From the NCBI RefSeq assembly GCF_964275005.1, contig NW_027307651.1, forward strand, positions 806,001-870,000: a stretch of 64,000 nt of DNA. Direction: 5' to 3'. The notes beneath the pieces were generated by a model. The model did no database searches and had not been told where the DNA came from. It saw nothing but the letters and a program-made list of their open reading frames with translations. Source of the stretch: Diadema setosum. Taxonomy: Eukaryota > Echinodermata > Echinoidea > Diadematoida > Diadematidae. Every line of letters starts with the position of its first letter. Positions within the stretch are counted from its first letter, which is position 1. Positions 19,338 to 64,000 of this stretch are shown in pieces. The position numbers and the translations under genes are program-made.

Positions 19338-19410
19338 ATGGATGAAATATCCTTCCTTGCTCTGTTGATAACACTGACTGCTTCTTTGCGCTGTGGCCGC
19401 ACTGCCGGAG
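19338..19410 (+). CDS. Copy 2 exon 1: signal peptide
   Basis: Encodes [20 protein letters not shown] followed by RTAG, a short hydrophobic leader with a small-residue cleavage region. The start was chosen as the second of two adjacent ATGs (19335 and 19338) because it aligns with the single ATG of copies 3 and 4. The exon ends in phase 1 at GTAAGT, as in those copies. Confidence 0.75.
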
Positions 19411-27048: not shown

Positions 27049-30000
27049 AATATATATTTTGTATTTAGTTTTCTACTAAAGGAACATCAGAATTTGGCCG
27101 CCATATTTGAGGTCATCTTGAATGTCTCACATTCCTCAAGGATGTGTAAGAGTGGCACCATCCAAATTTAGATTTGACATTTTCGAAATAGGGTATAAGG
27201 CTATCAAGATTCATTGGATGAACGGTAAAAGGATTGAAGGTGAGGCCCAAAATCTGGGTTTTGCACCCAAACTATTCGAATATCGCTAAACCTGCATGTA
27301 ACTGACCGTTTCATTGAATTTTGGCAGAATCGGTACAATATCTTTTCAGATTCTTATTTAGGAAGCTTCTCTCTTCAACAAACAATCGAAGTTGCGTGAT
27401 GAAGAGATCAAGACACTTGCTAATATTCCAATTTTCATCGTTGTACTCTTAGTGGTAGACATTGTCCCCAGCGTTCAAGGATGGAAAGGGGAAGACATCC
27501 GACTGCCATGCCACTTCCAAGGGGTACCTGAATCTGTGGTCTGGGTCAAAGAGAGCATCTTGTATCAGCCGGCTCCCAAAGCTAAATTTATCAATGGGAA
27601 CTTTAGGAGCTTGGAGAAAGGGTTCGACATGGGCATGAACTTTAACCTGGTCATCTCTGACGTGAAGATGGCAGATGAGGGTCTCTACCTTTGTCAAGTG
27701 CTTCTGAAGAATTTAGACAATTTCGAGAATTCCGTCCATTTGACGGTTAACTGTAAGTTATCTTTTGCTATATCATGACAGGGAGGAGGGGATTTGATCG
27801 TAAAAGTCGTCACTAACATATCCAAATAGTAATAAATCATAATCATGCTGGAGATGTTGGCATATTATTTGTTTATGCATACATGAGATTGATGGAGACC
27901 ATAAGATCGATATCAAATTAAAAAAAAAAAAAATCGGAGCCATAAAGAGTGTGCAAAAACTTCTTTGACCAGAATTACAAGATACATAAGCCATTATGAC
28001 GTTAAACTTCATAATTATAGCATTTAAAGATAAGATAATAAAATAATAAGATAAAATGATAAAATAAGATGGGAGTGTAGCAAGTATAGAATTTTGCAAA
28101 ATTCCGAAGACACATTGAGTAGCTGTGTCAATCATGACACGAGATATGTGATAAATAACTTGTTATACATTTGCCAGGGCTTTATCTTCTTAGCATTGTC
28201 CGGAAATCAGGAATTATATAACACTCTTCTTTTAACGAGAGAGATGAAATCTATCAAAATTGTCTTAGTTATTTGCTCATATAAACGATAGCAAGAAACT
28301 CATATTGTAATTATCAGATATGTGACATCCTATGAATTTCCTGTTTCCCTAGCGATGGCATCTAAACATACAATTGAGAATTGCGTCACTGAGAGTAAGT
28401 CCCGTCAAAGCAAGTGTACGTACCGACCTCCTAACACTTCTTTCATTACGCTTACGTGTGTCGTGAGTGGATTCATGCCCGACGTTTCTTTGATGTGGAC
28501 CGATGAGTCTGGAAAGAGACTACAATCCATGGCTTCACAAGAGACAACACTATCTGATGACACATACGAGAGGTTCGAGGAAATCGAGGTTTCAGTGAAA
28601 CGTGGAACAGAGCGAACTTTCATGTGCATAGCTACCGGTGACACGGTGAATGGAACGTCGACCAAAAGAATCACTCTTCTGCCTGTATTAGGTATTGTCG
28701 AAATCTTTTAAGTTGGTTTGATGTTGTTGTTTTTGAGGATAATAGGGTGTCTCATTAAAAATTTACCGCCACTTCAACTACAAACAAGAAAAGGATGCCC
28801 GACAAAAATAGAAACAATACTTCAACAAACGTTTTCATTCTGATTTGGCAACTTGAAACTTAATCTGAGCGGGTAGTTTTAGTCACAAATGAATGTGAGT
28901 TTACCCTGCTATCGAAAACACGTTCATTAATATAAAGAGTGCTAATTGATATAACGGCAAGGACCTTTAATAATGTAATTTTGCTTACAGCTGTTGTACT
29001 CGTAAAGTCAACTTTAATACACGTCTGTGGCACTACGGCTACGCCAAATAACATCGACGTAGTGAAAAATTACCGAGGTACTCATGGACATGTTTAATGA
29101 CTTTTACACTAGCATGTAGTGAATAACGTGTTTTTACCTTATCTATATCAAATTTCAGGAGAACGGGATATTGTCGGTCTCATCATCGGACTAGTCATTG
29201 GTATACCATCTGCCGTAACCATCCTGGTTCTCCTTGCTGCAAGATTTTGGCAAAAATGCGATAGGAACTTCATGCCGCAAAGAGGTGTCGTACATGTTTC
29301 TCTTTATTCATTTGTTGAGTGTTTTGTTTGTTTCTTTATTGAACCAGTGAAAAGTTATTATGTCTGTAACATTCTCTGCCTTTCGAATTGCCGCATTCAT
29401 CCGACTAAAGTAGTTTTAATCAACCATTTCTGTCATGCCTGCGTAATAATTTGTGACAAACTCAGCAATAGATAACAAAAAACAACTCGTGCTTTAATTA
29501 GACCTTTTTTATATTTTTTAATCACTGTTCACCTTGTCCAGTTTCGAAGGAATTAATATCGACCGTGCAGACAACCGTGAATAGTGAAGATGAGAGCAGA
29601 AAGTGGTACTCCGTCCAATGGGCGGACTTCAAACTTTGTTGCAGACGACTGAGGGACGTGTCCACTCAACACGTGAGTATGAGGCGGGATGACATGTGTA
29701 ATGTTACCCTACAAGGGGTCAAGAGGTTAATTAGCTAAATTTTACTTCGAGCGGCATCATTTTGCCACAATGAAACTGAAAGCGGTACCTAAAATGTCAT
29801 GCGAACACTGGTGGAATTGCTAGGTGAATCGTACATAATCACTTTATACCTTTCGTTTTTCCTGTTTTGGAACTTGCGTCATTTCAATTCAATTCAATTC
29901 AATTCAATTTTATTTCCATTTCCATTGAATAAATTTATGTCTCATGTCTCAAGGATTTTGTATCTGAATTGCTTTTTTTTTTTTCAATTTCTGAAACTAT

Positions 30001-33000
30001 ACTGGTCGTACACTAGATATGCATTAAACAGTTCCAGCACGTTTATTTTCATACTTCACTTGACGTTTATACATAGACACTCAGAAAAAAAAAATACAAA
30101 CAAACAAGGTATAAGATATGATATAAAGCGGGTCATGACTGTAGAAAGTGTGTCACGATACACATGTACATAGGAGACAATTCTCTATGACATGTGAAAT
30201 ATTAAGGAACTGCAAAAGCAAAGCTTGTAACCACGGGCTTCAGCAACAACAAAATATCAATGTAAATTTGTTTTGCAATGGAGATAAAACACAAAGTACT
30301 ATTTACGAAACTATATGAAAGCTAAAATAGCAAGGTACAGAGGGCGGAAGAAATAAAAGAAAAGAGAAGGGAAAGGGAAAGAGAAAAAAAAAACAAAGAA
30401 AAATGGATAAGAACTGAGTGAAAAAATAGACATATCTATGTAAATAAACAAGTATACGAGCATATATCTAGAGTCAAGATCATGAGGAGTGCCAAGTATG
30501 AGTAAACTAGTTTAGATATTATAATGGATTAAGGCTCTGAAGTACATGGTCTATTCAAGCGCTTAATCTTTACCGAGCTGTGCTAGCTGTGCAATGAAAG
30601 GGACAAAACTCAGGATGTAAATCACCGAAGCAACAACAATAAATGGATTATCGAATTACGCTGAAATTGAGCATGTTCTATTACAACATTCTGTCCATGA
30701 TTACTGCCAACTTTCAATGCAGTAGTTTTATCCTTTCAAAATTTAAAAGATTTTAACGTGAATAGTGTGTAAAGGATTTCAATACATTAAAAAGGAAACT
30801 CTAAGATATACCCTACAATTTTATTCTCTCCCCAAAAATGGTTGTAGAAAAAAGTGCTGAAAACGCACATTTCTATTCATGTTTTGATCCCACCAAACTA
30901 AAGAATAATATAGCAGAAGGATAGCACTTTCAGAAAATAAGAAAACCTCAAAATTGACTCAGTTTGCCCATTTCACCTATTTTGAGTCCTCACGTAAAAT
31001 CAAGGGGTGCAACTTTTTGTTCGTTTTGTGATGCACGGTCACATATAAAACAAAATATCGTGATCGATAGTGTCAAAGGCGTTGGACAGGTCCAGGAATA
31101 TACAAACTGTAGGTAATGAATCGTCGATAGCGTGGGCTATTTGATCGATAACAGCAAGCAGAGCGTAAGTAGTAGAGTGTTTTGTTCTTAAATCCACATT
31201 GAGAATCATAAAAAAGTATTGCATTCATCTTAAACCTTTGATTACACGAGAATATATCAAATGTCCGAAATCTTGGAAATTGTGGTCAAAAGAGAATTTG
31301 GACGACAATTACTTACATCTTATTTATTACGTTTTTAATAAACTGAAACAACTTGGCAATTTGTATATGACTAGGCACTGCGCCAGTAACAAGGAACAAA
31401 TTCAATACATATGTTACAGGAGTCAAAATTGCAGATATATTAACAATTTCGGGCAAGATATTCGTACTGCCATCGTCATGACCGTGTCCAGCATTCTTTT
31501 CTTTTTCTTTACTGTTAACTACGTGATTACTCGAACGTCAGTATGACGTAAGTATCTTTTTTAATCTAATTACTGTCTATATCTCCATTACATACCATTA
31601 TTTTCAGTGAAACTCGTAGATATCCATGTACAGGTGTTTTATGTGAAGATCTGTGTAAAATAAAGAATATTGCCCCGCCACTAGCATGACTAGCATGCCT
31701 GTCAAAATATCACAATGCTCCCGATGATAAATGTCCCGATGATATGGGAATTATTTTGCATATTTCATAAAATTTTGAGCAATTTGAAATCTTGCACCCA
31801 TGTGATCATACGTAAAGGAAGAATGACGTGTTTAACTACTTTTTTTTTTTCATGAGTACAATTTTTTTATCCACTTTCAATGTTATTGTACTTGCCTTAT
31901 TCTATGCGGATTAATTTGAACAGTTTGTTTGAAATTGCTGTTGATATCGTCAAAAACTGTGTCAAACTTTTTGTTTTTCTCTTTCAGGCACGAATACCAT
32001 TCTGGCTGTACGCCTTCTATCGGACCGGACTGGCCGCCTATTTCTTCGTATTTTTCATAGCGTACGTTGTACTCGGAGTGAAGGCAATGGGCGGGAAGTT
32101 CTTCATTTACCTCCCGGTCTGGACGTATACTGCCTCCGTGTGTTATGTGTGCCTTGCCTTCTTTAACGTTGCGATGGACTTCGTGAAGAACAAGGGAAAT
32201 CCAACGATTGAAGGTATTCATATTGTAGGTGTTGAAAGGGAGGACGGAGGAGGCTAACATGAAAGGCAGCGAAAGGTTCTGTTATAAAGCCGAAGTTGTT
32301 TGCAGGGCCCAAAGTTAGAACTAGAACTGATTATTGGCCACCAGATTTCCAAAAAGGTTTTAGTGGTCCAATACGGCAACTAAAGGATTGCATGTCTGCT
32401 TTTATTTCCTTTTTTTGGGGCCACCAACATTTCAGATGTGCAGATGTTAGTGGTTCGAATTAGCCATCAGAGGTAGAAGTTAGTGTCGAGCTTTGCACAG
32501 TGGATGTGAGCCGTATTACAAAACCGACAAAAAGTCACCCTTCAGTTATAGCACATTATAAAGAGCACACTTTGCGCTTTAAAATGATGTGTAACTCTAT
32601 TCTACTGAACTTTCTTAACTTATCTAAATATTGAAAAGACAGCACACACCTTGGAAAGGAGTGTACTGAGAAAAGAGGCTGTGAATCTGTATTGTCATAG
32701 AGTCTATAATTCAATTGCATTGTGTTTAATCTGACCGGGAGCCGTGCTGAGTGAAATAAATGGGAGAAAAAACGGCATGTATAACCTCATATTATCACAG
32801 TAAGCTGGAAAATGATCATGCTCTATCAACACTGGTCGTTCTAACCATGACTAATACCAACTTTCAAAGCAGTAGCATCCTTCTTTCAAAGATTATCAGA
32901 GTTGAAAACGAAGAGTGTGTAAAGGGTTTTTAGGAAATGAAAATGTACTCTAAGCCACACCTAATCATACTACTCTACAAAACTAAAAAAAAAAGTCTTA

Positions 33001-39400: not shown

Positions 39401-40510
39401 AGGCCAACGATGAGACCCGGCAGCAATGCATTTTTGTGATGTCCAGGGTCCATGTAAACCTCCTATGAGGTCAGTTGCTTGTCCGCTTTTCAGTTGAATA
39501 AACCTCCTGGGCCCCCGGTCTAATACTGCATATCAAACAATAATTTTCAGCCCATGTTTTTTTTTTTCATAGCTTCATTTCACAAAATATCAACGGCACC
39601 TTTAGAAACACGCATCATTAAAAAAGCATTAAGAAAAGCATCCTCCAGCAACGTTGTAACATTTTTTTTAATTTATTTTTTGCTGGTGAGGCCATCGTTT
39701 CGTTTTTCCTTTATATCCTTTGTATGTCTTTACATAACACTCAGTCTTCTATGTTAATTCTTTCTCAATAACATTTCTCTCTCACACAGAATTTTGTTTA
39801 TATGGATCTTACATAACAGATAATAAGGACGAAAGCAACTATATCCGATTCTGTTGCAATGCTTATAGCAAAGTAGTTAGCGCACAGCATAGGATCCTTG
39901 TTTATTGTCATGTCAATTTAGTCCTTCTTCGTGACAATTGATGTTGGTTACCGTTAATCTACCTTTTTCGGTATCCTATCTCTTGATACTTTCAGACAAA
40001 GTTCGGTACCAGATTCAGTGGTGTCTCTTTAACATCGCCGCAGCTTCTTGCCCCCTCGTGACCGGAGGTATTTGGATAGGCGTATACGATTTCATTTCGG
40101 CAAATCAACCTATTTTCATCATAGTCTATATTAGCGTGGATATCCTCCCTACCGTCGTTTGCTTCATGGAAATTTTCCTCACCCTGATCGTCGTCCGCTT
40201 CGTGCACGTAGTTTACCCAGGATTCTACCTGATCATCTACCTGTTCTTCACTGTCATCTACTGGGCTGCTGGGGGAACGGACCAGTTTGGATACCCCGCC
40301 ATATCTCCCAATCTTGATTACGAATACTACCCCGGCATCGCGACCGCAAGCGTGTTTGGCGCAACCTTGGCAGTGCTCTTGGCTCTGGCCGTGTTCAAGG
40401 GATTGTACACCCTACGTGTCAGATGTATGGATAGGTCAAGACCAGGAGCCATTCCTGCTACCGAAGCATGGGCAAAATCGCGGGGGGGTGGGGGTATGAA
40501 TTCCCCCTAA
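19338..40510 (+). CDS. Copy 2: Ig V/C1-like domain plus Rolling-stone-like multipass membrane protein (spliced gene)
   Basis: Exons: 19338-19410, 25997-26296, 27453-27752, 28353-28691, 28991-29077, 29159-29284, 29542-29672, 31988-32213 and 39996-40510. All splice sites are GT-AG and phases match. With one V exon the product is 598 aa; with both it is 698 aa. Order: signal peptide, Ig V domain(s), C1-like Ig domain, stalk, membrane helix, cytoplasmic linker, then six helices with Rolling-stone hallmarks (KFFIYLPVW, a GGTD turn, and a [10 protein letters not shown] motif before the last helix). The Rolling stone family is known from fly myoblast fusion; fusion to Ig domains is not a standard architecture. 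It probably sits in the plasma membrane with the Ig domains outside. Oddities are two V exons, a 5.9 kb palindrome in the last intron, and a last exon cut by a 5.2 kb insertion that replaces the C-terminal tail. A chimera of two adjacent genes is the main alternative, but the uninterrupted splice phases and repetition of the same order in copy 3 argue against it. Confidence 0.8.
19411..24430. other. Copy 2 intron 1, proximal part (about 5 kb)
   Basis: No coding exon is supported. Contents seen are AT-rich DNA, a (TA)n run (21046-21090), poly-T blocks around 21480-21620, two poly-C tracts (21895-21906 and 21977-21985) in a short repeat pair, and a short GACCTCTGTCACCGACCTCT duplication near 22340. 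The second-exon candidate seen in copies 3 and 4 just after exon 1 has no counterpart here. Confidence 0.5.
21046..21090. repeat. (TA)n microsatellite
   Basis: Pure TA dinucleotide run. Confidence 0.95.
24431..24509. repeat. (TA)n/(TG)n microsatellite
   Basis: An ATATAT stretch grades into a long pure TG run. The valine/cysteine and threonine/histidine repeat frames across it are artefacts. Confidence 0.95.
24807..25070 (+). mobile_element. Tc1/mariner transposase C-terminal fragment
   Basis: Translation contains [20 protein letters not shown] and then [29 protein letters not shown] and [10 protein letters not shown]. These match the end of Tc1-like transposases, where the last catalytic acid lies in the NPIENLW motif; here it reads NPGENLS. 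About 85 residues remain before the stop at about 25068, and the N-terminal DNA-binding and first catalytic parts are not visible. It is a dead remnant in intron 1 of copy 2. Confidence 0.85.
25436..25578. repeat. (TA)n microsatellite upstream of V exon a
   Basis: A long alternating AT tract with a short CA island. A sister tract lies at 26918-27056 upstream of V exon b, showing that the duplicated segment includes the microsatellite. Confidence 0.95.
25580..26372. repeat. Segmental duplication containing V exon a
   Basis: Matches 27050-27829 (V exon b) from the GTATTTAGTTTTC(C/T)ACTAAAGGAA block to CATATCCAAATA in the following intron. The first ~600 bp differ by indels and substitutions. 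The last ~190 bp (26182-26372 against 27638-27829) are nearly identical. The duplication is direct and about 1.46 kb apart. Confidence 0.85.
25997..26296 (+). CDS. Copy 2 exon 2a: Ig V-type domain, version a
   Basis: A 300-nt exon with phase 1 at both ends, the usual form for a shuffled Ig domain. Hallmarks are the first cysteine in [10 protein letters not shown], the core tryptophan in VFWVKES, and the DEGLYLCQ motif (D-x-G-x-Y-x-C) with the second cysteine. There is no J-type FGxG strand at the end. The acceptor ATTCTTAG and donor GTAAGT are clear. Open reading continues upstream into the intron, but splice and paralogue evidence fix the start at 25997. The domain faces outside and is the likely ligand-contact part. 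Confidence 0.85.
26528..26702. mobile_element. MITE (175 bp) between the two V exons
   Basis: Inverted ends of about 31 bp: AGTGAAAATATTACTCTTGA at 26528 and its near-complement TCAAGAGTGAATATTTTCACT ending at 26702. No coding. It lies only in the segment after V exon a, so it inserted after the V duplication or was lost elsewhere. Confidence 0.75.
26918..27056. repeat. (TA)n/(CA)n microsatellite upstream of V exon b
   Basis: Alternating TA and CA tracts in the same relative position as 25436-25578. Confidence 0.95.
27453..27752 (+). CDS. Copy 2 exon 2b: Ig V-type domain, version b
   Basis: Same length, phase, splice sites and core residues as version a ([19 protein letters not shown]). It differs at about 17 of 99 residues. 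Fourteen of these fall between the first cysteine and the D-strand: [26 protein letters not shown] and DMGMNF, against [26 protein letters not shown] and DMDRNF. The following ~38 residues are identical. Being phase-symmetric, it can be spliced together with, or instead of, version a without changing frame. Sequence alone does not say which is used. Confidence 0.85.
27753..28352. other. Copy 2 intron between V and C exons
   Basis: No exon seen. The whole intron aligns with copy 3 (52970-53533), including GAGATGTTG, AAAATCGGAGCC and CACATTGAGTAGC strings, so it is part of the ancestral unit. Confidence 0.65.
28353..28691 (+). CDS. Copy 2 exon 3: C1-like Ig domain
   Basis: A 339-nt exon, phase 1 at both ends, acceptor CCCTAG and donor GTATTG. 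The centre reads [16 protein letters not shown], which fits the C1-set pattern of cysteine, GF-x-P and tryptophan known from antibody and MHC constant domains. The second cysteine lies in TFMCIATGD. There are two extra cysteines near the start ([15 protein letters not shown]) and likely N-glycosylation sites PNTSF and NGTS. The assignment to C1 rather than C2 or I is by motif only. Confidence 0.8.
28991..29077 (+). CDS. Copy 2 exon 4: stalk
   Basis: An 87-nt exon (29 codons), phase 1 at both ends, acceptor TTACAG and donor GTACTC. It reads [20 protein letters not shown] and then NIDVVKNYR. There is one cysteine that could form an interchain bond. Copy 3 has the same length at 54162-54248 with few changes, so the exon is real. 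Confidence 0.75.
29159..29284 (+). CDS. Copy 2 exon 5: first transmembrane helix
   Basis: A 126-nt exon. It encodes [20 protein letters not shown] followed by [11 protein letters not shown] and a basic KCDR stretch, a typical stop-transfer helix placing the Ig domains outside and the linker inside. The donor is GTGTCG, weaker than average. If the intron is retained, the frame runs on for about 59 residues to a stop at about 29473. Confidence 0.85.
29542..29672 (+). CDS. Copy 2 exon 6: cytoplasmic linker into the Rolling-stone-like module
   Basis: A 131-nt exon, entered in phase 1 and left in phase 0. It contains [20 protein letters not shown] and [18 protein letters not shown]. The aromatic/tryptophan-rich [14 protein letters not shown] stretch just before the first helix of the module resembles the short pre-helix region of Rolling stone proteins. 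Acceptor TGTCCAG and donor GTGAGT are canonical, unlike the acceptor in copy 3. Confidence 0.8.
29673..31038. other. Copy 2 intron, with (CAATT)n and repeats
   Basis: No exon. A (CAATT)n tract lies at 29881-29908. Much of 29700-30480 aligns with copy 3 (54800-55570). From about 30540 to 31047 it holds a part of the MITE family whose ends read GTGATGCACGGTCAC / GTGACCGTGCATCAC. Confidence 0.55.
31039..31224 (-). mobile_element. LINE reverse transcriptase fragment
   Basis: The minus-strand frame reads [20 protein letters not shown] and then [17 protein letters not shown]. This matches the RT region around the first catalytic aspartate of CR1/Jockey-like LINEs. Only about 60 residues remain. 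Copy 3 lacks this fragment at the equivalent position and carries a different LINE. Confidence 0.85.
31988..32213 (+). CDS. Copy 2 exon 7: helices 1-2 of the Rolling-stone-like module
   Basis: A 226-nt exon, entered in phase 0 and left in phase 1. It reads [19 protein letters not shown] for the first helix, then [20 protein letters not shown] for the second. The YR-x-x-x-A-x-Y start and FIYLxxW motif are the strongest resemblance to Rolling stone proteins, where the equivalent is FIYLTNWG. Acceptor CTTTCAG and donor GTATTC are clear. Confidence 0.85.
32505..33225. mobile_element. MITE shared by copies 2 and 3 (ancestral insertion)
   Basis: The inverted ends are imperfect. ACAAAACCGACAAAAAGTCACCC opens the element, and GTGTGCGACTTTTTGTGGATT with a trailing ATTCCACTG closes it. 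The same element, at the same intron position, is at about 58118-58800 in copy 3, so it was present before the gene duplicated. Related fragments lie at about 30540-31047 and at about 51975. No coding. Confidence 0.6.
33385..33421. repeat. (CA)n microsatellite
   Basis: CA run shared in position with 58976-59005 in copy 3. Confidence 0.9.
34404..36620 (-). pseudogene. Transposon-encoded protein remnant, left arm
   Basis: Read leftwards on the minus strand, pieces are [20 protein letters not shown], then [20 protein letters not shown] (36430-36600), split by a TTAA MITE. Next is a 139-residue open stretch (35211-35630) containing [20 protein letters not shown] and [20 protein letters not shown]. 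Then come [19 protein letters not shown] and [20 protein letters not shown] pieces, and last an acidic serine/aspartate-rich tail. I recall this kind of protein (a YPLG-like motif, an SIK motif, a TDTD-like motif, and TGCDxTSxFxGKGK) as a frequent transposon product in invertebrate genomes, but cannot name the family safely. Several stops and frameshifts make it non-functional. Confidence 0.6.
35682..36431. mobile_element. TTAA-type MITE (750 bp) inside the palindromic transposon
   Basis: Terminal inverted repeats AGAGACTATACAGTTCTGGT (35682) and the complement of AGGGACTGTACAGTACTGGT (ending 36431) sit between TTAA duplications (35678-35681, 36432-36435). This is the pattern of piggyBac or Kolobok non-autonomous elements. 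The interior is itself a loose inverted repeat (GAGATACCAAGAAATCACTT and partners). The right arm of the host transposon lacks it, so it inserted after the palindrome formed. Confidence 0.85.
37269..38700 (+). pseudogene. Transposon-encoded protein remnant, right arm
   Basis: Mirror copy of the left-arm remnant on the plus strand: [20 protein letters not shown] (37400-37455), [20 protein letters not shown] (37640-37700), [20 protein letters not shown] (38090-38150), and an acidic [21 protein letters not shown] tail in a third frame (38630-38690). Frames are broken repeatedly. The two copies differ at many sites but share some stops, so the gene was probably already dead, or the element already palindromic, before they diverged. 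Confidence 0.55.
39526..39995. other. Copy 2, end of last intron
   Basis: Resumes alignment with copy 3 (59190-59635) directly after the palindrome's target duplication, with matching TTTCACAAAAATAT, AACGTTGTAACATTTTTT and TGACAATTGATGTTG blocks, and ends in the acceptor ACTTTCAG. Confidence 0.75.
39996..40510 (+). CDS. Copy 2 exon 8: last four helices, tail altered by insertion
   Basis: Entered in phase 1, stop TAA at 40508-40510. Helices are around [60 protein letters not shown] and [20 protein letters not shown]. The GGTD turn and LDYEYYPG motif between the last two helices are characteristic. After ATE the frame enters a transposon at 40467 and ends in [14 protein letters not shown]. The displaced original tail lies 5.2 kb away at 45634-45724. 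All predicted helices are intact. Confidence 0.85.
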
Positions 40511-49627: not shown

Positions 49628-49700
49628 ATGGATAAGAGATCCGTCCTCTTTCTTCTGTTAATATTGATTGCTTCTTTGTTCTGTGGCGCCACTGCACAAG
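49628..49700 (+). CDS. Copy 3 exon 1: signal peptide
   Basis: Encodes MDKRSVLFLLLILIASLFCG and then ATAQ: a basic start, a strong hydrophobic core and an ATA-type cleavage site. It has the same length (73 nt) and phase as copy 2. The donor is GTAATT. Confidence 0.85.
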
Positions 49701-52700
49701 GTAATTATGGCTTTGCTTTCATTATACATTCAATTGAGTAATATCACTGAAATGAGTTGTTCAAAAGACAGACCTGCACATAAAATCACGTATGTAATAT
49801 ATTCATTATAATTTGAGGTAGAATGCCTGACAGCGCATTTCTGTAATAATTGTAATTTCATATTTTCACATATTTTGTTCCAGATGCCAGATGTTTGTAT
49901 CTGTAAAATTACGGATGTCTTCTCTCGTTTCAATGCAAAGGTTATCCTGCTACTCACAGTTGGCGGTGGGTGATTTTGTTGTTTATGTTGTTTGTATATG
50001 ATGCATTACATCGGTGCATTAGCAGAGTATTCAGAGTAAACATTTATAAATACTAAGATAGAATTTTCAAATGATTATGAGAGTTATTGTTGAAAGAACG
50101 TCAGGCCAGTAATTTTTGGTCAAGTTTGATAAAGAAATATTAGATCTAAGATCAGCTCTATGCAACTCTGTCCAATTATTGCACGTATGTAAATGCCATA
50201 GAAGAAAATGGACTTACGAAATACTCATGCAAAAACTAATCCATGAATGAAGTAGCGCCTCACCCAAAAATCAATTAAAGCCGCATACCACGTTCTCGCT
50301 CTAATGATATATCAAACATAATTTTTCAAGGCATTAAGCTTTTGGTCTAAATCCTACTCCGAGAATCAGCTGGTGTGGCTGGTTTAAATATGAGATTGAG
50401 TCTCTGTATATCGTACAACAACCCATACCGTGCCTTTCTGCCCATAAATGGGAAAGAAAAAACACACAAACGTGAATTGCTCTGGAAAGGGAAAAGAGTA
50501 AAAATGAATAGAAGTAATAAAAGTTAAGAGTTTTATCGCAAAACGAATTAAATCCATTGTTGTTAAGGTGAGATATTTGTGATTAACCAGTTCCATACTG
50601 AATTCTGAAATCCTCATAGACTTAGTACACAGGTCACCAGGTTTCCGTATGAAATGGGTTAATTCTGCTTAAAAATAGAAAATAGTAAGAACATACAGAA
50701 TATCTTTAATTATAACTTCCAGAACATTTCTTGTTATATTACAAGTGAGATAATATCGGAAAGGTTTAACTTTGCTCTAAATGATTATGGAATGACTTTG
50801 AAAAGTTAAATAAAAGGTACTTATATAATAATGAAAAAAAATATGATAGTGATAAAACACTCACTATGGCGTTTGCCCTGCTTTATAGAAAATCCAATCA
50901 TGGAAAAGTCCACGCCTTGTATTTTGTAATTGAGTATATGAATATAAGAACGACCCAAGTCCATGGAAGACCATTTCGAGTAAACTAAAAAAAAAAAAAA
51001 AAAAAAAAAAACTTCATATCTTTTTTATTTGTCCAATAATATTCTATTTAACTGTGATGGGAAGGCAACATTGTATATACAAATTAGAACATATGTTATA
51101 TTATTATGACAATTAACATTTACATTAATTGTGGAGAGGACATTTTGTGTGGTGGACTTGGGTCGTTCTTTGATTCATGTGGACTTGGGTCGTTCTTTGA
51201 TTCATATACATGATATTCTGCTATAGAGATGAGAGAAGGATGAGAGAGGGCGCTATAATATGAATGTAAGAATGACCCAAGTCCTTCATTCTTACATTAA
51301 TATAAGATTTAACTCATTCATTTCAGGCACTTCCGGGGGTAATTAGGATTTATCATTTGTACACAAGATGAGTCCATGCATAAGGTACAATTTCCCATGT
51401 CAAACTGAATTTGGCCAAAAATTGGACTTGGGTCGTTCTTATATTCAGGTCTTAAATTCCCTTTACTTTGATGAAAATGTAATTGGAGACATGCTAGATT
51501 TACATTCTCTGGACATTTGCCATGTTCAAAATTATAGTATGATCTATGCAGACTCGATGCACGATAGAGGGGTGGACTTGCATTGTTTATTCACCATAAA
51601 ATGAAATATAAAGCAAAGACATGCCTTTAAATCTTAACTTGGTCGGAAATATTACCAGAAAATACAATAGGAAAAAGAGATTCACTTACCGGTGAATTGG
51701 GATAATGTTTTGCGAGAAAGAAATCACCGCCACAACAGGTCATGGGTATTCGAGCTTGGATCTGCCTGAACCGCTATAGCGTCTCCGTGGCCGAGCGGTT
51801 TAAGGCGTTTGTGTTCCAAGACAAAAACCCGGGTTCGAGTCCCGGCGGGGACCAATTTTTCAACTCTTGCACTTTTCCTAAAAAGGAGGGACAGTAAGAG
51901 GTATAATGATGCCAAAGCAACGCACCAATTTCTCCTTTCTTTCTCATATCTCACTATGTATTATGATACATTATGTGACCGTGCATCACAAAACCAACAA
52001 AAAGTCGCACCCCTTGATTTTACGTGAGGATTCAAAAGAAATGAAAAGGGCCAACCAAGTCAATTTTGAATTGTTTTCATATTTTCTGAAAGAGCTATTC
52101 TTCTTCTACATTATACATGCGATGGGGATCATGAATGGAACAGTGTTTTTCAAGAAATTCTTCTGCAACCCGTATTTTGTTTTTGTAGAATTAATAGTGA
52201 GATAAAGTTATGTCTTTGAGGACCCTTTCCATTTCTTTGCACTAAATAAAAGAAATCTTTGCATTGCACTTACTGACCTTGTAAACATAGGTTTCAAAAC
52301 TGTGTTCCAATCTGAAACATTTAACGTGCAAGAACAGTTTGAATAGAAACACTGTATTTCCATCATGGTGACAACTAATTTGCGTATTATACAAATTCAA
52401 CTGTTTTGCCCCATTTGATTTCTTGGGACTCTTAGTATGGTGTTTAGGAAACCATAACGAGTTGCACTGCACTGGAATTCCTACAGTTATGTGTTGTGAT
52501 GGGTCAAATTTTATTTTGACTCGACTAAAATGTAGAATGTAACATAACTGTGCTTAATTCCAAGTTCTTCATTTTGCAGCCTGTCCATGAAACAATGGAA
52601 GATATGTCAGGAGATCGAGGCATTTTGCTAACGATGCAAATACTCGAATTTTCTCCGTTGTAATTTCAGTGATAGACACTGTCTCCAGCGTTCAAGGATG

Positions 52701-55700
52701 GAAAGGGGAAGACATCCTACTGCCATGCCACTTCCAAGGGGAGCCTGCAACTGTGGCCTGGGTCAAGGAGAGCGTATTACATCAGCAGGTGCCCAAGGCT
52801 CAATTTGTCGATGGGAACTTTGAGAGCTTAGAGGAAAGGTTCGATATGGACAGGAATTTTAGCCTCGTCATCTCTGACTTGAAGGTGGCCGATGAGAGTC
52901 TCTACCTTTGTCAATTGGTTTTGAAGAATTTGGACAAATTCGAGAATTCCGTCCATTTGACGGTTAACTGTAAGTTATCCTTTGCTATTTGATCGTAAAA
53001 GTCGTCACTTTACCACATTCAAATAGCAATGCATCATATGTTGGAGATGTTGTCATTATGTGCGTATACACGAGATTGATGTGGACCATAAAGATACAAT
53101 ATCAAATACACAAAAATCGGAGCCGTAAATAGTGTGCAAAACCTTTCTTAAACAGCATCACAAATTACAAAGCCATAAATGAGATTAAACTTCATGGTTA
53201 TGGCCCTTCAAGTAAGATTTGAATGCCAGAAATGGAACTTTGCAAAATTCTGAAGACACATTGAGTAGCAGCTGCTGTGTCAATCATACATGACACGAGA
53301 TATGTAATAAGTATTTTGTTATACATTGGCCAGGGTTTTATCTTCCTGGCATTGTTCGTGTTCAATAGCAAACCATACCAGAAATATATGACACTTCTTT
53401 TTAACGAGAAAGATGAAATCTGTTAAAATTGTCTTAGATATTTTCTGACTTAAAAAAAAAACAAACAACAGCAACAAACTCAAATTGTAACTATCAGATA
53501 TGTGACATCCCATGATTTTCCTGTTTTCCCTAGCGATGGCATCTAAACATACAATCGAAAAATGCGTCAATGAGAGTAAGTCCTGTCAAAGCAGGTGTAC
53601 GTACCGACCTCCCCCTAACGCTCCTTCCATTGCACTTACGTGTGTCGTGAGTGGATTCAAGCCCGACGTTTCTATGATGTGGACCACTGAGTCTGGAAGG
53701 AGACTAAAATCCATGGCTTCTCGACAGACAACACTATCTGACGGCACATATGAGAGGTTCGAGAAAATCGAGGTTTCAGTCAAACATGGGACAGAGAAAA
53801 CCCTCGCGTGCATAGCTACCGGTGACTCGGTGAATGGAACGTCGACCAGGAAAATCACTCTTCTACCTTTATCAGGTTTTTTGGAAATTTTTGAAGTTCC
53901 TTTTTTTTTTCTTAATGATAGCGTGTCTTATTAAAACTTCTACCGCCACTACAACTACGAAAAAAAAGTATGCACGACAAAAATATAAGCAATCAATACT
54001 TCACCGAACGTTTTCATTCTGATTTGTCACAGGGTAGTTCTAAGAAAACGAAACTGATTGACAACACAAACGAATGTGAGTTAACCTTGCTATCAAAAAC
54101 AATTGCATTAAAAAAAAAGGTTTAGCTAATATAACGCCAAAGGCCTTGTGTTTGTGTACAGCTGTTGTAATCGTAAAGTCAACTTTAATACACGTCTGTG
54201 GCGCTACGGCTACACCAAATATCACCGACGTATTGAAAAAATATCGAGGTACTCATAAACATATTTAATGACTTTAGCTCTAGTATTTAGTGAATAACGT
54301 GTTTTTACCGTATCTATATCGAATTTCAGGAGAACGGGATATTGTCGGTCTCATCTTCGGACTAGTCATTGGTATACCAGCTGCCGTAACCATCCTGGTT
54401 CTCCTTGTTGCAAACTTTTGGCACAAATACGATCAGAACTTCGTACCGCAAAGAGGTGTCGTTACATGTTTCTCTTTATTCATTTGTTTGTTTGTTTTCT
54501 TTCTTCATTAAACCAGTGAAAAGGCATGAACGATATGTCGAATTGCAGCATTTATACAATTGAAATTGTTTTAATCAACCATTTCTGCCATGAATGCGTA
54601 ATAATTTTGTGACAAACTCAGCAATAGATTGAAAAAAGAAATCACTGTTCACTTTGTCCTGTTTCGGAGGAATTTACATCGACCGTGCAGACAACCCTGA
54701 ATAGTGAAGATGAGACCAGAAAGTGGTACTCCATTAAATGGGCGGACTTCAAACTTTGTTGTAGACGACTTAGGGACGTGTCCACACAACACGTGAGTAT
54801 GACGTCGGGATGACATGTGTAACATTACTCTACAAGGAGTCAAAAAGTTAATCAGCTAAATCTTACTTCGAGCTTCATTGTCAATTTGCGACAATGAAAC
54901 TGAATACGGTACCAAAAATGCCATGCGAACACTGGTGGAATAGTAAGTTTAATCGTGCATAATCACTTTTTACCTCCTGATTCTATACGATTTTTTTTTC
55001 TTTTTCCCTGTTTTGGAATTTGCGTCACTTTAATGTCTCATGTCTCAAGGATCTTGTATCTGAATTACTTTTTTTTAATTGAATTAAATTGCTGAAACTG
55101 CACTGGTCTTACACTCGAGATGCATTCATCAGTTCCAGCACGTTTATTTCCGTACTTCACTTGACGTCTATACATAAATACTAGGAAAAAATACAAACAA
55201 GCAAGGTATAAAATATGATATAATGCGGATCATGGCTAGAAAGTGTGTCACTATACACGTGTATCTAAAAGACAATTCTCAATGACATGTGAAATATTAA
55301 GGAATTGCAAAAGTAAAGTTTGTAGCCACGGGTTCTAGCAACAACAAAATGTCAATGTTAAATTTGTTTTGCAATGGAGATAGGACACAAAGTACTAATG
55401 ACGAAATTATAAGAAAGCTAAAATAACAAGGTACAGAGGGCGAAAGAAGTAAAAAAAAAAAAAAAGCGAGGAAGAAAAGGGAAAGAGAAAAAACAAACAA
55501 ACAAAGAAAAATGAATAGGAACTGAGTGAAAGAATAACCATATTTATGTTAATACACAAGTATACGAGCATTTATTTCATTTCATTTTCATTTCATTTAT
55601 TTTCCACATCCTGATAAAAAGCATTTACAAAAAATACAGGAACGATACATACACAGTAGGACATTGGAACAATACAAGAAAAATAAGTCCAACTTACAAG

Positions 55701-57505
55701 AATTTTACAACAGACAAACACAACATAAAAGCAGTTATTTCAGATTGTTGGGGGATCAACATAGACCGTTGGTCTTTCTATGGCTGATCCCAATTGTTAC
55801 AGCAAAGGATAGTTACATTGATGCAATACACACAAGAAAAACTATACTACAGAAAGTGCACAATACATATAAGAAGGCAAGAGTAATCAAAGTGTGGTGC
55901 GTGTACACTGCATAAAACTTCAAATTTATAATATATCTTTATGAACAAGGAATGATTTGTATTTTCTTTTAGATATTGAAAGTCTATTAGACAGCTTTAT
56001 CACATTTGGCAAGTCGTTCGATAGAACAGGTCCCGTATATTTGAAAGTGTATCTTGAAATGCAATACTTAAAATTTGGGATATATATAAAAGTATATATC
56101 TAGAGCCAAGCTCATAAGGAGTTAAAAAGTATGAGTATACTATGGTAGAGATTATCATGGATTATATGGGAGCATAAACAGTGGACCCAGAGGTAAAGCA
56201 ACCGTACAGTGCAACTTGATCAGCCATGCATTAGAAGAAGATGATATAAGATAACATGTAAAATGATTTTAAACAGGCAAGTTAATTTCATTAAGTAACA
56301 ATAATTCGAGTGTTTGTTTAAAAAATCAACAGAGAAGAAAATTTTACTACATGTACGGGAAGATCATTCCAGAATTTGGGTCCGGTGAGAGCATTTTTTT
56401 TTTTCGGCAAAGAGTGTGCGAGTACGTGAAGGTAAAATAAATATCTTTGTCTTGTGGGGTAATGAATTGCATGAACTGCACAATTTGTTTTTTTTTTTCC
56501 CTGAATATATGCGTTAATATGTCACACAAGTCGTTGGCTGATAACTGATTCATAAATGTGCCTAAGTTTACAAAAACAGATTAGCAACCTTAAGGACTCT
56601 GTTTTCAAAAGAAGAGATAATTCACGTAACAATGAAAACCAGGTAGGTTGGCTGATCGAATAGCTCGTATTTGGAAATTATTTCTCAATGTGTGATTTTG
56701 CATAATACCCCCAGGCAAGTAAACCATAATTCAGATAAGGTGAAATAAGAGTGGACTATAATTATTTCAAAATATATTTTGGCAAAAAAAAAATGTTTGA
56801 GCTTGTCAAGATTCCAGTATCTCTTTGAAAGCATCTTAGATCAAAAAATCTATGTGATATTTCCATGATAATTTTTGGTCAATTCAAAAACCTAAAAATT
56901 TGAACCGTTCAACTCGACTTAAACAATCATTATTTGAAGAGTTTGTTTGCAAAAACCGATAAGTCCATATTTGTCAAATGGAGATATTTGCGATTAAAGG
57001 TCAAGAAATGTAAAGAGAATAATAAGAAAATGTTTGCTTCTTTTGGCCATAACTTCAAAAATGTACCTTTATATGTAGTGACCAATATATCATTTAAAAG
57101 GTATTATTTTGTACTTTATGACAGAGACCGTACTTCAAAATCTTCAAAAATGGACTTATCGGTTTTTGCAAACAAACTCTTCATTTATTCTTATATCGTG
57201 ACATTGAGAGGCAACTTGTTTGCTTGAATCCACATTTGAACTGACTTTAATTCTCTGTTCACTTCATCTAAACGTGCTGTTGGGTTTCGGTGTGAAAGAA
57301 GATATTAGCATCATCGGTAAAAAGAATTAATGACAAAATAGATAAATATTTGAAATCATTTAAATGACAAAAAAAAAAATAATAAAGTCGGCCAAAGGGA
57401 GATTCTTCAGGAACTTCAAAAGATAGTGTGGGAATTATTTTGCATATGTTTCGTACATTTTAAAATCATGCACTCATATCCACATGCGTAAAGCAACAAT
57501 GACGT

Positions 57506-57543
<38 letters not shown>

Positions 57544-60153
57544 CATGAGTAGAGACTTTTACCAATTTTCAATGATGTCGTCCGGGCCTTATGTATGCGG
57601 ATTCATTTGAACAGCTTGTTTGAAATTGCTGTTGATATCGTCGAAAGCTCTTTCAAAATTTTTGTTTGTTTTTTTGTTTTTTCAGCCACGAATACCATTC
57701 TGGTTTTACGCATTCTATCGGACCGCACTCGCCACCTATTTCTTCGTATTTTTTATAACGTACGTTGTACTCGGAGTGAGGGTACTGGGCGCGAAGTTCT
57801 TCATTTACCTCCCGGTCTGGGCGTATACTGCCTCCGTGTGTTATGTGTGCATTGCCTTCTTTAACGTTGCGATGGACTTCGTGAAGAACAGGGAAAACGC
57901 AGCATTTGAAGGTATTCATATAGCTGGGCTTGAATGGCGGGGGAGGTTGAAGCTAAACATGAAAGGCAACGAGAGGTTCTGTTATAAAGTCTAACTTTAA
58001 TCCACGACCCAAGGTTAGCGGTGACCCGAGACCACAACATTTGATGTTTGGCTACCAGATTTCGAAAAAGGTTTTGTGGCCCGATACTGTCGAGCCTTGT
58101 ACATCATGTATATGGTTTGTGACCCTGCATCACAAAAACAACAGAAAGTCGCCCTACACGGATTTTAAGCTATTAAAAGCAGATTATACAAGAGCACACT
58201 TTAAGCTTTAAAATGATGTATAACTCAATTCTAATGGACTCTTTCAACATATCTGAATATTGGAAAGACAGAACACAGTTTGGAAAGGTGTGTACTGAGG
58301 AAAGAGGCTTTGAGTTATTGTCATAGGGTGGATAATTCAAGAGCTTAATCTGACCGTGAGCCGTGCTGAGTGCAGTAGATGGAACAAAATCAGGATATAA
58401 AAATTCATACTCGCAGTAAGCCGAAAATGATCGTGCTCTATACACACATTCTAATCATGACTAATAATAACTTTCAAAGCAGTAGTATCCTCCTTTAAAA
58501 GATGATTAGAGTTGAAGGTGAAGAGTGTGAAAAGTGTTTTTTAAGAAATGAAAGGGGACTCTAAGACACCTAATCACACTACTCTAAACTACAAAAAGTG
58601 TTCCAGAAAACTGCTGCTAAAAACACAATTTCCAATTTTGTTTATGATCTCAAACTTTAGCAAAATGTAGAAGATTTGCTCTTTTAGAAAACATGATTGA
58701 CTAGGTTGACCAATTTCACCTATTTTCATTCCGAAAAAAAAAACAACAACAACAAAAGTTTGTGCGAATTTTTGTTGATTTTGTATTGCACTATTATGCA
58801 TCCAAATGTTTCTTCGCAAAGGCTGTCTATGCCAGGCTCGATATTTTTATGTGGTTACCCCTTGACAAAGCCTTATGCTAAACACGCCGTTTTGACATTG
58901 TGGTTACGTGCTGTGACGAATTGTGAAACTCTGCTGACTTAGCAATAGAATGATTTTTCAGGTGCTTTAAAATACACATGCACACACACACACACGCACA
59001 CACACGCGAACAACAGCCAATTATAGAAAATTGTGATGATGTCAAACAAAGCAGTTACGCTTCTAAACCGTTTCTTTCATGGTCTATTTTCTTGAAATGA
59101 GTAGGGAAGACTCGTTTGCTCATATATGCCAATTTTCGTTTGGTCATATATGCCAATTTTCGTTTCCTTTTGACAATGTTTGAATTATACTTCATATCAA
59201 ACAATAGTTTTCAATCCATATTTTTTATAGCTTCATTTCACAAAAAATATTAACGGCACTCTTAGAAACACGCGTCATTAAAAACGAAATTAAATGTATT
59301 CTCTAGCAACGTTGTAACATTTTTTGCTGCTCGTTTCTCCATTATATCCTTTACATGTCTTAATATACCACTCAATCGTCTGTGTTAATTATTTCTTAAT
59401 AACCTTTCTCTCACACACACAGTTTTGTTTATATGAATCTTACATAACCGGTAATAAGGGCGAAACCAACTGTACCCGATTCTCTTGTCATGCTTATAAC
59501 AAAGTCGTTAGCGCACAGTATAAACAGGCATAGGCCCTTAATCATTTTCGTTTCTTTTTAGTCCTTTGTCGTGACAGTTTCTGTTGATTACCGTTAATCT
59601 ATCTTTCTTGATCCCATATCTTTTGATACTTTCAGACAAAGTTCGGTACCAGATTCAGTGGTGTCTCTTTAACATCGCCGCAGCTTCCTGCCCACTCGTA
59701 ACCGGAGGTGTTTGGATAGGCGTATACTATGCCGTTTCGGTTGCAAATCTACCTATGTTCATCATAGTCTACATTAGCGTAGATCTCCTCCCTACCGTCG
59801 TCTGCCTCTTCGAAATCTTTCTCACTCAGATCGTCGTCCGCTTCGTGCACGCAATTTACCCAGGCTTCTACCTGATCATCTATTTGCTCTTCACTGTCAT
59901 CTACTGGGCGGTTGGGGGAACGGACCCTGGTGGACGCCCCTACATATCTCCCATTCTCGACTACGAATACTACCCCGGCATCGCGACTGCAAGCGTGATT
60001 GGTGCAACCTTGGCAGTGCTCTTGGCTCTTGCCGTTTCCAAGGGATTGTACACCCTCCGTGTCAGATGTATGGATAGGACAAGGACAGAAGCCATTCCTG
60101 CTACCGAAGAGTCGTCAACTGTTGCGCTCGAATCACTGACAACGTATTTCTGA
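49628..60153 (+). CDS. Copy 3: Ig V/C1-like domain plus Rolling-stone-like multipass membrane protein (spliced gene)
   Basis: Exons: 49628-49700, 52670-52969, 53534-53875, 54162-54248, 54330-54455, 54662-54792, 57686-57911 and 59636-60153. They total 1803 nt, giving 600 aa. Order is signal peptide, one V domain, one C1-like domain, stalk, helix, cytoplasmic linker and six helices. This predicts a seven-pass protein with Ig domains outside and a short cytoplasmic tail. No frameshift or stop is present. The exception is the acceptor before exon 6, which is TG (54660-54661) where copy 2 has AG. If that is real, exon 6 may be skipped or its intron retained. Skipping shifts the frame, and retention ends the protein after the first helix (stop at 54509-54511). 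Only one V exon is present, closest to version a of copy 2. Confidence 0.8.
49701..50938. other. Copy 3 intron 1, proximal part
   Basis: At 49885-49972 there is a possible second exon that aligns with copy 4's exon at 63963 (acceptor TTTGTTCCAG). In the phase set by exon 1 it soon meets a stop, unless a second AG at about 49891 is used. I therefore do not call it. The rest is AT-rich with no features. Confidence 0.4.
50939..51447. mobile_element. Foldback MITE with GACCCAAGTCC motifs (509 bp)
   Basis: Ends TGAATATAAGAACGACCCAA (50939) and its complement (ending 51447). Two further direct copies of GGACTTGGGTCGTTCTTTGA lie near 51130-51200, and an inverted copy near 51270. A poly-A run of 24 is at 50988-51011. 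No coding; no clear target duplication. Confidence 0.65.
51781..51852 (+). tRNA. tRNA-like gene, type uncertain, possibly a pseudogene
   Basis: A cloverleaf can be folded. The acceptor stem GTCTCCG pairs fully with CGGGGAC (one G-U pair). The D-arm TGGCCGAGCGGTTTAAGGC carries the A-box of serine/leucine type. The T-arm is CCGGGTTCGAGTCCCGG (B-box GGTTCGAGTCC). The anticodon stem TTTGT/ACAAA closes an 8-nt loop GTTCCAAG, one base too long, so the anticodon is ambiguous (CCA if the extra base is the first). The long variable arm expected with this D-arm is missing. A TTTTT terminator follows at 51856. It sits in copy 3 intron 1. It could be an odd functional tRNA, a pseudogene, or the head of a SINE. 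Confidence 0.55.
51856..51860 (+). terminator. RNA polymerase III terminator after the tRNA-like gene
   Basis: A run of five T directly downstream of the acceptor stem, as expected for Pol III genes. Confidence 0.5.
51960..52669. other. Copy 3 intron 1, distal part
   Basis: Contains another partial member of the GTGACCGTGCATCACAAAAC MITE family (from about 51978) and otherwise AT-rich DNA. The last ~60 bp give the acceptor TAATTTCAG. No exon. Confidence 0.5.
52670..52969 (+). CDS. Copy 3 exon 2: Ig V-type domain
   Basis: A 300-nt exon, phase 1 at both ends. Core residues are PCHFQG, VAWVKES and DESLYLCQ. Compared with copy 2a it changes mainly in the same central block (VPKAQFVDG, EERFDMD) but also in the G-strand half (LKVADES, CQLVLKNLDK). 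It is thus diverged along its whole length, unlike the a/b pair of copy 2. Confidence 0.87.
53534..53875 (+). CDS. Copy 3 exon 3: C1-like Ig domain
   Basis: A 342-nt exon, one codon longer than in copy 2 (YRPPPNAPS). The core is [16 protein letters not shown] and LACIATGD, with NGTS as a potential glycosylation site. The acceptor is TTCCCTAG and the donor GTTTTT, the latter weaker than in copy 2. Confidence 0.83.
54162..54248 (+). CDS. Copy 3 exon 4: stalk
   Basis: An 87-nt exon reading [20 protein letters not shown] and then ITDVLKKYR, with the single cysteine kept and a new N-glycosylation site (NIT). Phase 1 at both ends. Confidence 0.77.
54330..54455 (+). CDS. Copy 3 exon 5: first transmembrane helix
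   Basis: A 126-nt exon with DIVGLIFGLVIGIPAAVTIL and VLLVANFWHKYDQ. Donor GTGTCG as in copy 2. If the intron stays in the RNA, the frame adds about 18 mostly hydrophobic residues before TAA at 54509-54511. Confidence 0.87.
54662..54792 (+). CDS. Copy 3 exon 6: cytoplasmic linker, with a TG acceptor
   Basis: A 131-nt coding stretch intact in frame ([38 protein letters not shown]), donor GTGAGT. The two bases before it are TG instead of the AG seen in copy 2, through one substitution. Nearby AG dinucleotides within the exon restore neither frame nor length. The coding sequence is still close to copy 2, so either the change is recent, the TG is tolerated (rare GT-TG introns are known), or it is a sequence error. 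Confidence 0.7.
54793..56169. other. Copy 3 intron between exons 6 and 7, proximal part
   Basis: Aligns with copy 2 (29673-30530). Around 55575-56090 an extra segment rich in CATTT pentamers, followed by unique AT-rich DNA, is present here but absent from copy 2. It resembles a retroposon tail. No exon. Confidence 0.5.
56170..57430 (-). mobile_element. LINE ORF2 remnant (RT catalytic region to C-terminus)
   Basis: On the minus strand, from right to left: LFTDDANIFF (about 57315), the catalytic x-DD motif; VNRELKSVQMWIQANKLPLN (about 57230); then FKFLGF and KLSWK-like pieces (about 56900); TLISPYLNYGLLAWGYYAK (about 56735); and GPKFWNDLPVHVV near 56370, the WN-LP motif. Frames are broken. A MITE sits inside. 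Copy 2 lacks this insertion, so it came after the gene duplication. Confidence 0.82.
56935..57183. mobile_element. MITE (249 bp) inside the LINE remnant
   Basis: About 34-bp inverted ends: TGAAGAGTTTGTTTGCAAAA at 56935 and the complement TTTTGCAAACAAACTCTTCA ending at 57183. The apparent 97-residue open frame across it is palindrome-derived and not a gene. Confidence 0.85.
57507..57543. repeat. Poly-T tract
   Basis: A run of about 37 T. Copy 2 has a shorter T-run at the same place (31840-31850). Confidence 0.95.
57686..57911 (+). CDS. Copy 3 exon 7: helices 1-2 of the Rolling-stone-like module
   Basis: A 226-nt exon reading FWFYAFYRTALATYFFVFF and then [20 protein letters not shown]. Phase 0 in, phase 1 out, acceptor TTTTTCAG. 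The FIYLPVW motif and the helix pair are kept as in copy 2. Confidence 0.87.
58118..58800. mobile_element. MITE shared with copy 2 (ancestral insertion)
   Basis: Begins GTGACCCTGCATCACAAAAA and ends with the rough complement GTTGATTTTGTATTGCAC. Collinear with 32505-33225. No coding. Confidence 0.6.
58801..59635. other. Copy 3, last intron (distal part)
   Basis: Contains a CA microsatellite (58976-59005), a short tandem duplication of CATATATGCCAATTTTCGTTT (59118-59165), and the intact empty site for the 5.9 kb palindrome at about 59180. No exon. Confidence 0.6.
59636..60153 (+). CDS. Copy 3 exon 8: last four helices and tail
   Basis: A 518-nt exon ending TGA at 60151-60153. Helices are around [60 protein letters not shown] and [20 protein letters not shown], with [18 protein letters not shown] and [11 protein letters not shown] motifs. 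The YI-x-P-x-LDY element is characteristic of Rolling stone proteins. The tail EAIPATEESSTVALESLTTYF is probably the ancestral C-terminus. Confidence 0.88.
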
Positions 60154-63702: not shown

Positions 63703-64000
63703 ATGGATAAAAGATGCGTTCTCGTTCTATCAATATTTGCAGCTTCTGTGTTCTGTAGCCCCACTGCAGAAGGTAATTTGGTTTTATTTTCATAAACTTA
63801 CACTCAGTATAACTTCATCAGGTCTCAACAAAGTAATATCACCTAAAAGTTTTTTGTTTGTTTGTTGCCTTTTTTTAAGCGGACGGCGCTGAACCGAACA
63901 ATCATGTAATATAAATGTAATCACCATCTTTTCTCCATCAATTTTCGCTCATTTTGTTTCAGATGTACTCACCTCCTATCCGAAAACAGCTAATTTTTTC
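63703..64000 (+). CDS. Copy 4, start of a further family gene (partial)
   Basis: Exon 1 is 63703-63772 and encodes MDKRCVLVLSIFAASVFCSP and then TAE: a signal peptide one residue shorter than in copy 3, with the same phase-1 end and a GTAATT donor. After a 190-bp intron, an acceptor TTTGTTTCAG at 63962 opens a second exon in phase, reading DVLTSYPKTANFF before the window ends. Copy 2 shows no such exon and copy 3 has only a damaged-looking version. Copy 4 may therefore have another domain between signal and V, or may be a different subfamily. Confidence 0.65.

Follow-up and report, generated by a model that had tools for sequence, protein, structure and literature searches.

Can a single sea urchin gene join an immunoglobulin (Ig) ectodomain to a six-helix membrane protein of the Rolling stone (Rost) family, and what would such a receptor do? 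This question is raised by a stretch of 64,000 nucleotides of the Diadema setosum genome (NCBI RefSeq assembly GCF_964275005.1, contig NW_027307651.1, positions 806,001 to 870,000 of the forward strand), referred to here as the window, in which four gene copies, A to D, lie in tandem, all on the plus strand. The original prediction, made from the sequence alone, described copy C (49628 to 60153) as eight exons with matching phases that encode a signal peptide, a V-type Ig domain, a C1-like Ig domain, a stalk, a membrane helix, a linker and a six-helix module, and proposed a new seven-pass receptor. Our analyses partly confirmed this observation and partly supported its first interpretation. 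A fused Ig-helix-Rost gene is very probably real, the continuity of its transcript being deduced from genomic sequence. To the full proposal, in which the fused protein also has an immune function, we assign a probability of about 0.6; its topology, order of events, ligand and signalling we infer.

The exons and phases of copies B and C were read directly from the DNA. Those of copy C are as follows:

49628..49700, plus strand: exon 1, signal peptide, phase 0 to 1
52670..52969, plus strand: exon 2, V-set Ig, phase 1-1, Pfam match
53534..53875, plus strand: exon 3, C1-set Ig, phase 1-1, Pfam match
54162..54248, plus strand: proposed stalk exon, phase 1-1, doubtful
54330..54455, plus strand: membrane-helix exon, phase 1-1, with the donor common to all modules
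54662..54792, plus strand: linker exon, start of the Rost module, ending in phase 0, without a phase-1 AG acceptor
57686..57911, plus strand: Rost exon 1, phase 0 to 1, Pfam match
59636..60153, plus strand: Rost exon 2 with the stop, read from the DNA, Pfam match

The order recurs in copy B, as had been predicted, except that copy B has two V exons; its own signal-peptide exon lies 6.6 kb upstream:

19338..19410, plus strand: signal-peptide exon, phase 0 to 1, donor GTAAGT
25997..26296, plus strand: first V-set exon, phase 1-1, Pfam match
27453..27752, plus strand: second V-set exon, phase 1-1, Pfam match
28353..28691, plus strand: C1-set exon, phase 1-1, Pfam match
28991..29077, plus strand: proposed stalk exon, open and in phase
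29159..29284, plus strand: membrane-helix exon, phase 1-1
29542..29672, plus strand: linker exon, acceptor tgtccag, phase 1 to 0
31988..32213, plus strand: Rost exon 1, phase 0 to 1, Pfam match
39996..40510, plus strand: Rost exon 2 with the stop and an unusual tail, read from the DNA, Pfam match

Pfam profiles identified the V-set domain in copies C and B (scores 44.3 and 84.9, respectively; cut-off 26), the C1-set domain (21.9 and 23.6; cut-off 21) and the Rost family PF21534 (49.8 and 44.0 bits; cut-off 26.8), which bears out both the predicted Ig types and the predicted Rolling-stone match. The linker, Rost-1 and Rost-2 parts each matched PF21534 above the cut-off, and the FIYLPVW, GGTD and LDYEYYPG motifs named in the original prediction are present in copy C. 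No Pfam match to NACHT was found in copy B or C, nor any to PF04750 at E 0.1, and the Rost part had no match among PDB sequences at E 1. Profiles and hydropathy place an Ig ectodomain followed by a membrane helix in both copies, and the hydropathy of the copy C product fits six Rost helices, or seven passes in all. This product would have 571 amino acids, compared with the roughly 600 expected, if the stalk is left out and the junction of NCBI model P0002 is used. The C1-helix part of copy B is identical to model P0001 over 154 residues and that of copy C to P0002 over 109.

The stalk itself did not hold up. In both copies the 87-nucleotide exon keeps an open frame and the right phase. Alignment A1 comprises 14 models, 13 of them with C1 and helix, and the exon is present in none of these 13; comparing B with C over its 28 codons gives a ratio of nonsynonymous to synonymous substitution rates (dN/dS) of 1.02. 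The phases match as described for the signal peptide, V, C1 and helix exons, the end of the linker and both Rost exons, the exception being exon 6 of copy C, which is taken up below.

Whether the Ig and Rost parts belong together was addressed across the genome, where a profile search returned at least 58 linker exons and at least 84 Rost-2 matches, both sets including distant ordinary Rost, and where 150 of 272 candidate C1 exons were scored. Of the 58 linker exons, 27 are preceded within 6 kb by a C1 exon on the same strand, 0 of 58 are followed by one and 2 of 58 have one on the other strand; conversely, a linker lies within 6 kb downstream of 27 of the 33 C1 exons listed in these clusters. 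Forty loci were read from the 58 linker matches (one further match lies inside L046), and 21 of them have a helix exon within 5 kb upstream, 16 also with C1 and 7 also with V. The gap from helix to linker is about 181-1156 bases in 19 of these 21 loci and 2650 and 3409 bases in the other two. An in-frame ATG precedes the linker core in only 1 of these 21 loci, as against 11 of the 19 that lack a helix exon (Fisher p = 3.5e-4), and in 1 of 20 versus 8 of 14 (p = 1.2e-3) when six look-alike pairs of loci on C4 and C25 are merged. Ten of the 11 ATG-bearing loci without a helix exon share a Rost-only start of the form M(T/S/A)S(E/K/Q)G, with which models P0017, P0018, P0019 and P0021 also begin, and the acceptor of the fused genes, tgtccag/T, sits where the Rost-only genes encode CP-V. 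Rost-only genes with their own start therefore coexist with fused genes in the same clusters.

Each of the six pairs has one member on C25, which holds the window, and the other in C4:38.7-40.6 Mb, with a similarity of 96-99.6% across aligned segments that add up to 1.8-6.4 kb; for copy C and the C4 locus closest to it, L010, the similarity is only about 90%. From these similarities, C25 may in part be an alternative haplotype of C4, with copy numbers inflated to that extent.

Among the 28 Rost-class NCBI models, 20 join C1-helix to the linker, 18 of them from D. setosum and 2 from D. antillarum (P0006 and P0022). A further D. antillarum model, P0007, joins a V exon directly to the Rost linker without C1 and helix; as all these exons enter in phase 1, this join keeps the frame, and exon skipping could give further forms.

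The Ig exons of the fused loci are under purifying selection. Median pairwise dN/dS is 0.43 for V (7 loci), 0.53 for C1 (14), 0.66 for the helix (18) and 0.35 for the linker (21), and none of the 21 V pairs or the 91 C1 pairs reaches 1. C1 is open in 14 of 15 loci, the exception being L010, which has a stop in C1. The helix exon gives a dN/dS of 3.46 between B and C on 41 codons, compared with the median of 0.66 over 18 loci. Positive selection on V was not seen, either between B and C or among the 7 fused loci.

The Rost modules of these genes are relatives of ordinary Rost proteins rather than ordinary members. The genome also has eight ordinary Rost loci (L049-L056), which the Rost-2 tree places outside the family (support 99/94); all 7 of those submitted to Pfam match PF21534 above the cut-off, and L049 also reaches that of Far-17a_AIG1 (PF04750). 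A His found in all 7 ordinary loci that cover the site also occurs in 3 of 20 family members, with Asp in its place in B and C, indicating that the Rost modules of B and C are derived. AIG1 and ADTRP require a Thr and a His for hydrolysis (PMC8123165); if, as we infer, the His sites correspond, the Rost module in most of these receptors would not be an active hydrolase. An order in which Rost-only genes came first was also sought in the Rost-2 tree, with the eight ordinary loci as outgroup; the base of the family was not resolved there, so this order is proposed rather than read from the tree.

The same ectodomain is coupled to several modules in Diadema. A whole-protein profile search (E up to 1), in which the best 8000 candidates by common words were scored, returned 69 proteins, all from Diadema, as were all 14 and all 23 proteins from two Rost-directed searches, the second again among the best 8000 candidates; because just these candidates were scored, the absence of other genera is weak evidence. 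The fusion, for which the original prediction asked that other echinoderms be searched, was found in models of a second species, D. antillarum, and within these candidates in Diadema only. The 76 distinct Diadema proteins comprise 28 of the Rost class, not all with an Ig part, 31 with NACHT, 4 with a GTPase-like part, 2 with only the exon that precedes NACHT and 11 with none of these. Recurrent layouts include V-C1-helix-NACHT, V-C1-V-C1-helix and V-V-C1-helix-GTPase; proteins P0027-P0076, from D. setosum and D. antillarum, thereby point to a large receptor family at the level of the genus. Pfam matched NACHT in all three NACHT-class proteins submitted (P0041, P0054 and P0035), and MMR_HSR1 above the cut-off in P0073 (24.4 vs 21.9) and below it in P0071 and P0036. 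A single match of the GTPase-like part among PDB sequences (E 0.86) was dismissed as chance.

A GNN-coded residue follows the helix exon in 51 of the 53 proteins that reach the exon end (14 do not reach it), against a background of 0.30, an excess that would be explained by a single phase-1 donor serving the different modules. The C1-plus-helix tree has 68 rows, and all 21 rows that bear Rost lie on one side of a branch with a Shimodaira-Hasegawa-like approximate likelihood ratio test (SH-aLRT) value of 100; the NACHT label needs 12 changes, and the ectodomain of the window copies falls among Diadema NACHT-type ectodomains. Because the Rost-bearing ectodomains form one clade, a single origin of the Rost fusion is favoured. 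Taken together, the profile matches, the compatible phases, the one-sided order from C1 to linker, the loss of the start, the selection, the single clade and the D. antillarum models all support the fused architecture.

We propose that the tandem copies encode a surface receptor with a signal peptide, one or two V-set domains, a C1-set domain and a membrane helix, after which a cytosolic linker of about 60 residues would lead into the six-helix Rolling-stone module and a cytosolic tail, making seven passes in total. An Ig-plus-helix cassette of phase 1-1 exons would be spliced to a NACHT, a Rost or a GTPase-like P-loop module. The Rost form probably arose once, when the phase-1 donor of the helix exon began splicing into a Rost gene just after its start, at a site through which present-day Rost-only genes continue to code (..CP-V..), the start codon having gone in the fused genes. 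AjNLRC4 of Apostichopus japonicus, which has Ig domains outside and NACHT inside, promotes phagocytosis via actin, and its recombinant ectodomain bound all 5 bacteria tested as well as lipopolysaccharide, peptidoglycan and mannan (PMC8699970). As AjNLRC4 is a published phagocytosis receptor, the Diadema Ig-Rost protein can be read as an innate immune receptor whose working end has been exchanged for a membrane module: its Ig part may likewise bind microbial surfaces, in innate recognition or as a phagocytic receptor, with the Rost module perhaps serving within the membrane for coupling or clustering, mostly without catalysis. The same analogy makes microbial recognition the most likely role of the Diadema family, of which the Rost members would be a branch with a membrane module as its working end. 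We give even odds to a still broader proposal, a diadematid plug-in system in which an expanding V-C1-helix cassette with a phase-1 donor takes interchangeable effectors (NACHT, Rost and GTPase-like). The Rost version would have come about by splicing into the exon with which a Rost gene starts, a six-helix membrane protein thus becoming the working arm of a pattern-recognition receptor.

Several observations weigh against the proposed fused immune receptor. At exon 6, copy C reads tgtcctg/TT where copy B reads tgtccag/TT and therefore lacks a phase-1 AG acceptor; of the 21 fetched loci with an upstream helix exon, 18 were scored (L034, L036 and L045 being left out), and 17 have such an acceptor, 16 at the homologous place and L041 six bases later, copy C alone having none. 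Exons 5 and 6 of copy C are nonetheless joined at this point in model P0002, which reads QR/VSEEF. V, C1, helix and linker occur together in only 3 of the 28 Rost-class models (P0001, P0005 and P0013), and many of these models begin inside C1. The annotation is partly chimeric, since P0001 ends in the V exon of copy C and P0014 holds a stray V piece, as does P0035; models that are chimeric between neighbouring copies of the array are no stand-in for transcripts across exons 1 to 8. Among the 58 linker exons, 31 have no listed C1 within 6 kb upstream, the list covering 150 of the 272 candidates. Copy A is broken. Distances in the ectodomain and in Rost are uncorrelated when truncated models are kept in the set, which then numbers 17 (r = -0.003); the 11 full-length models, a set chosen after the first value had been seen, give r = 0.48 (13 of 5000 permutations as high). 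The predicted seven passes are consistent with hydropathy, and the AlphaFold model of P0001 (14-row alignment) was unusable, with a predicted local distance difference test (pLDDT) score of only 36.6. Finally, the immune role rests on analogy with AjNLRC4.

One alternative is that two neighbouring genes are repeated as a pair, an Ig-helix receptor that ends past the helix exon and a Rost gene starting at the linker. The same clusters do contain Rost-only genes that have their own start, NCBI models can be chimeric, and read-through past the helix exon of copy C runs into a stop within a few residues, which would allow an Ig-helix form that lacks Rost. However, 20 of the 21 loci with a helix exon have no in-frame ATG before the linker, the phase-1 donor and phase-1 AG acceptor agree in 17 of the 18 scored loci, the helix-to-linker gap is just about 0.2-1.2 kb in 19 of 21, and C1 always lies upstream of the linker, which makes a pair of separate genes improbable. 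That the fusion is present in the DNA but the Ig-Rost genes are largely decaying pseudogenes could be argued from the broken copy A, the missing acceptor of copy C, the altered tail of copy B, the stop in C1 of L010 and the stops contained in several Rost-2 matches. The open C1 in 14 of 15 loci, the dN/dS below 1 in every V and C1 pair and the fused models in two species speak against general decay, which we likewise regard as improbable.

A different question is what the fused protein would recognize. In Drosophila, rolling stone is tied to myoblast fusion, and Ig proteins often serve in cell recognition, both of which would suit a receptor for cell-cell recognition or fusion (in gametes, allorecognition or muscle) whose fusion role came from Rost. 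Yet in 31 of 76 proteins this ectodomain family comes with NACHT, large tandem families of diverged copies would suit immunity, and AjNLRC4 offers an immune precedent (PMC8699970). Since other Diadema proteins couple the ectodomain to NACHT or GTPase-like modules, the cell-fusion role suggested at first is less favoured than immunity, and we consider it unlikely. The reading that we prefer remains an Ig-Rost receptor for innate recognition.

The remaining copies extend beyond the window at either end:

179..699, plus strand: last Rost exon of copy A, broken frame, read from the DNA
63703..63772, plus strand: signal-peptide exon of copy D, phase 0 to 1, the remainder lying beyond the window

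C1, helix and linker exons lie just upstream of the window (locus L018), and the next linker exon downstream of the start of copy D is that of L048. The last exon of copy B closes with 14 residues (40480-40510) unlike the tail of its relatives, as if replaced, and model P0001 bypasses this altered tail by splicing into the V exon of copy C. The long last intron of copy B holds an inverted repeat (33583-35481 / 37605-39525) with arms 93.7% alike over 1.9 kb, which is probably a mobile element, and further inverted pairs lie at 9462-10940/11241-12736, 7618-8854/14223-15455 and 1519-2152/5004-5629. At 51781-51853, within intron 1 of copy C, lies a tRNA-like gene whose anticodon call is odd (tRNA-???, tcca). 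Six copies of a 275-base unit form a tandem array (61494-63144, 94% matches) that closely precedes copy D and to which the sequence at 43463-44065 is related.

To our knowledge, ordinary Rost proteins have no ectodomain. Copies B and C resemble the Rolling stone family in matching PF21534, and ordinary Rost paralogues occur in the same genome; they differ from these in the Ig ectodomain and extra helix in front and in the change of His to Asp. AIG1 and ADTRP (PF04750) are likewise six-helix proteins, and the ordinary paralogue L049 reaches their cut-off; they have no ectodomain, and B and C appear to have lost the likely counterpart of their required His (PMC8123165). No literature was found that pairs rolling stone with immunoglobulin or echinoderm, the matches listed for a broader query made no mention of rolling stone, and among the matches listed for Diadema with NOD-like receptors (NLR) none was relevant by its title or the start of its abstract. 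Echinoderm Ig-transmembrane immune receptors are already known, so the predicted novelty narrows to the Rost effector, a layout that is not shown in the literature searched. One of these is AjNLRC4: like it, the Diadema family would have Ig domains outside, a membrane helix and then a module, and its V-C1-helix-NACHT members have the same kind of layout, whereas copies B and C have Rost in place of NACHT; AjNLRC4 is described with two helices, the likeness between them being one of layout (PMC8699970). AjNLR-new of A. japonicus is another echinoderm combination of Ig, transmembrane and NACHT parts, reported, unlike the Diadema layout, with NACHT outside and Ig inside (PMC13133943). If one transcript joins the exons, an Ig ectodomain would be mounted on a multi-pass Rolling-stone module, and it could be asked what this module does once coupled to ligand binding; since Rost-only and fused genes share clusters, the gain of an effector by exon capture is open to study. 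Beside the Diadema Ig-NACHT proteins and AjNLRC4, the Ig-Rost genes would then form a comparative system in which the same recognition part is fitted with different working ends.

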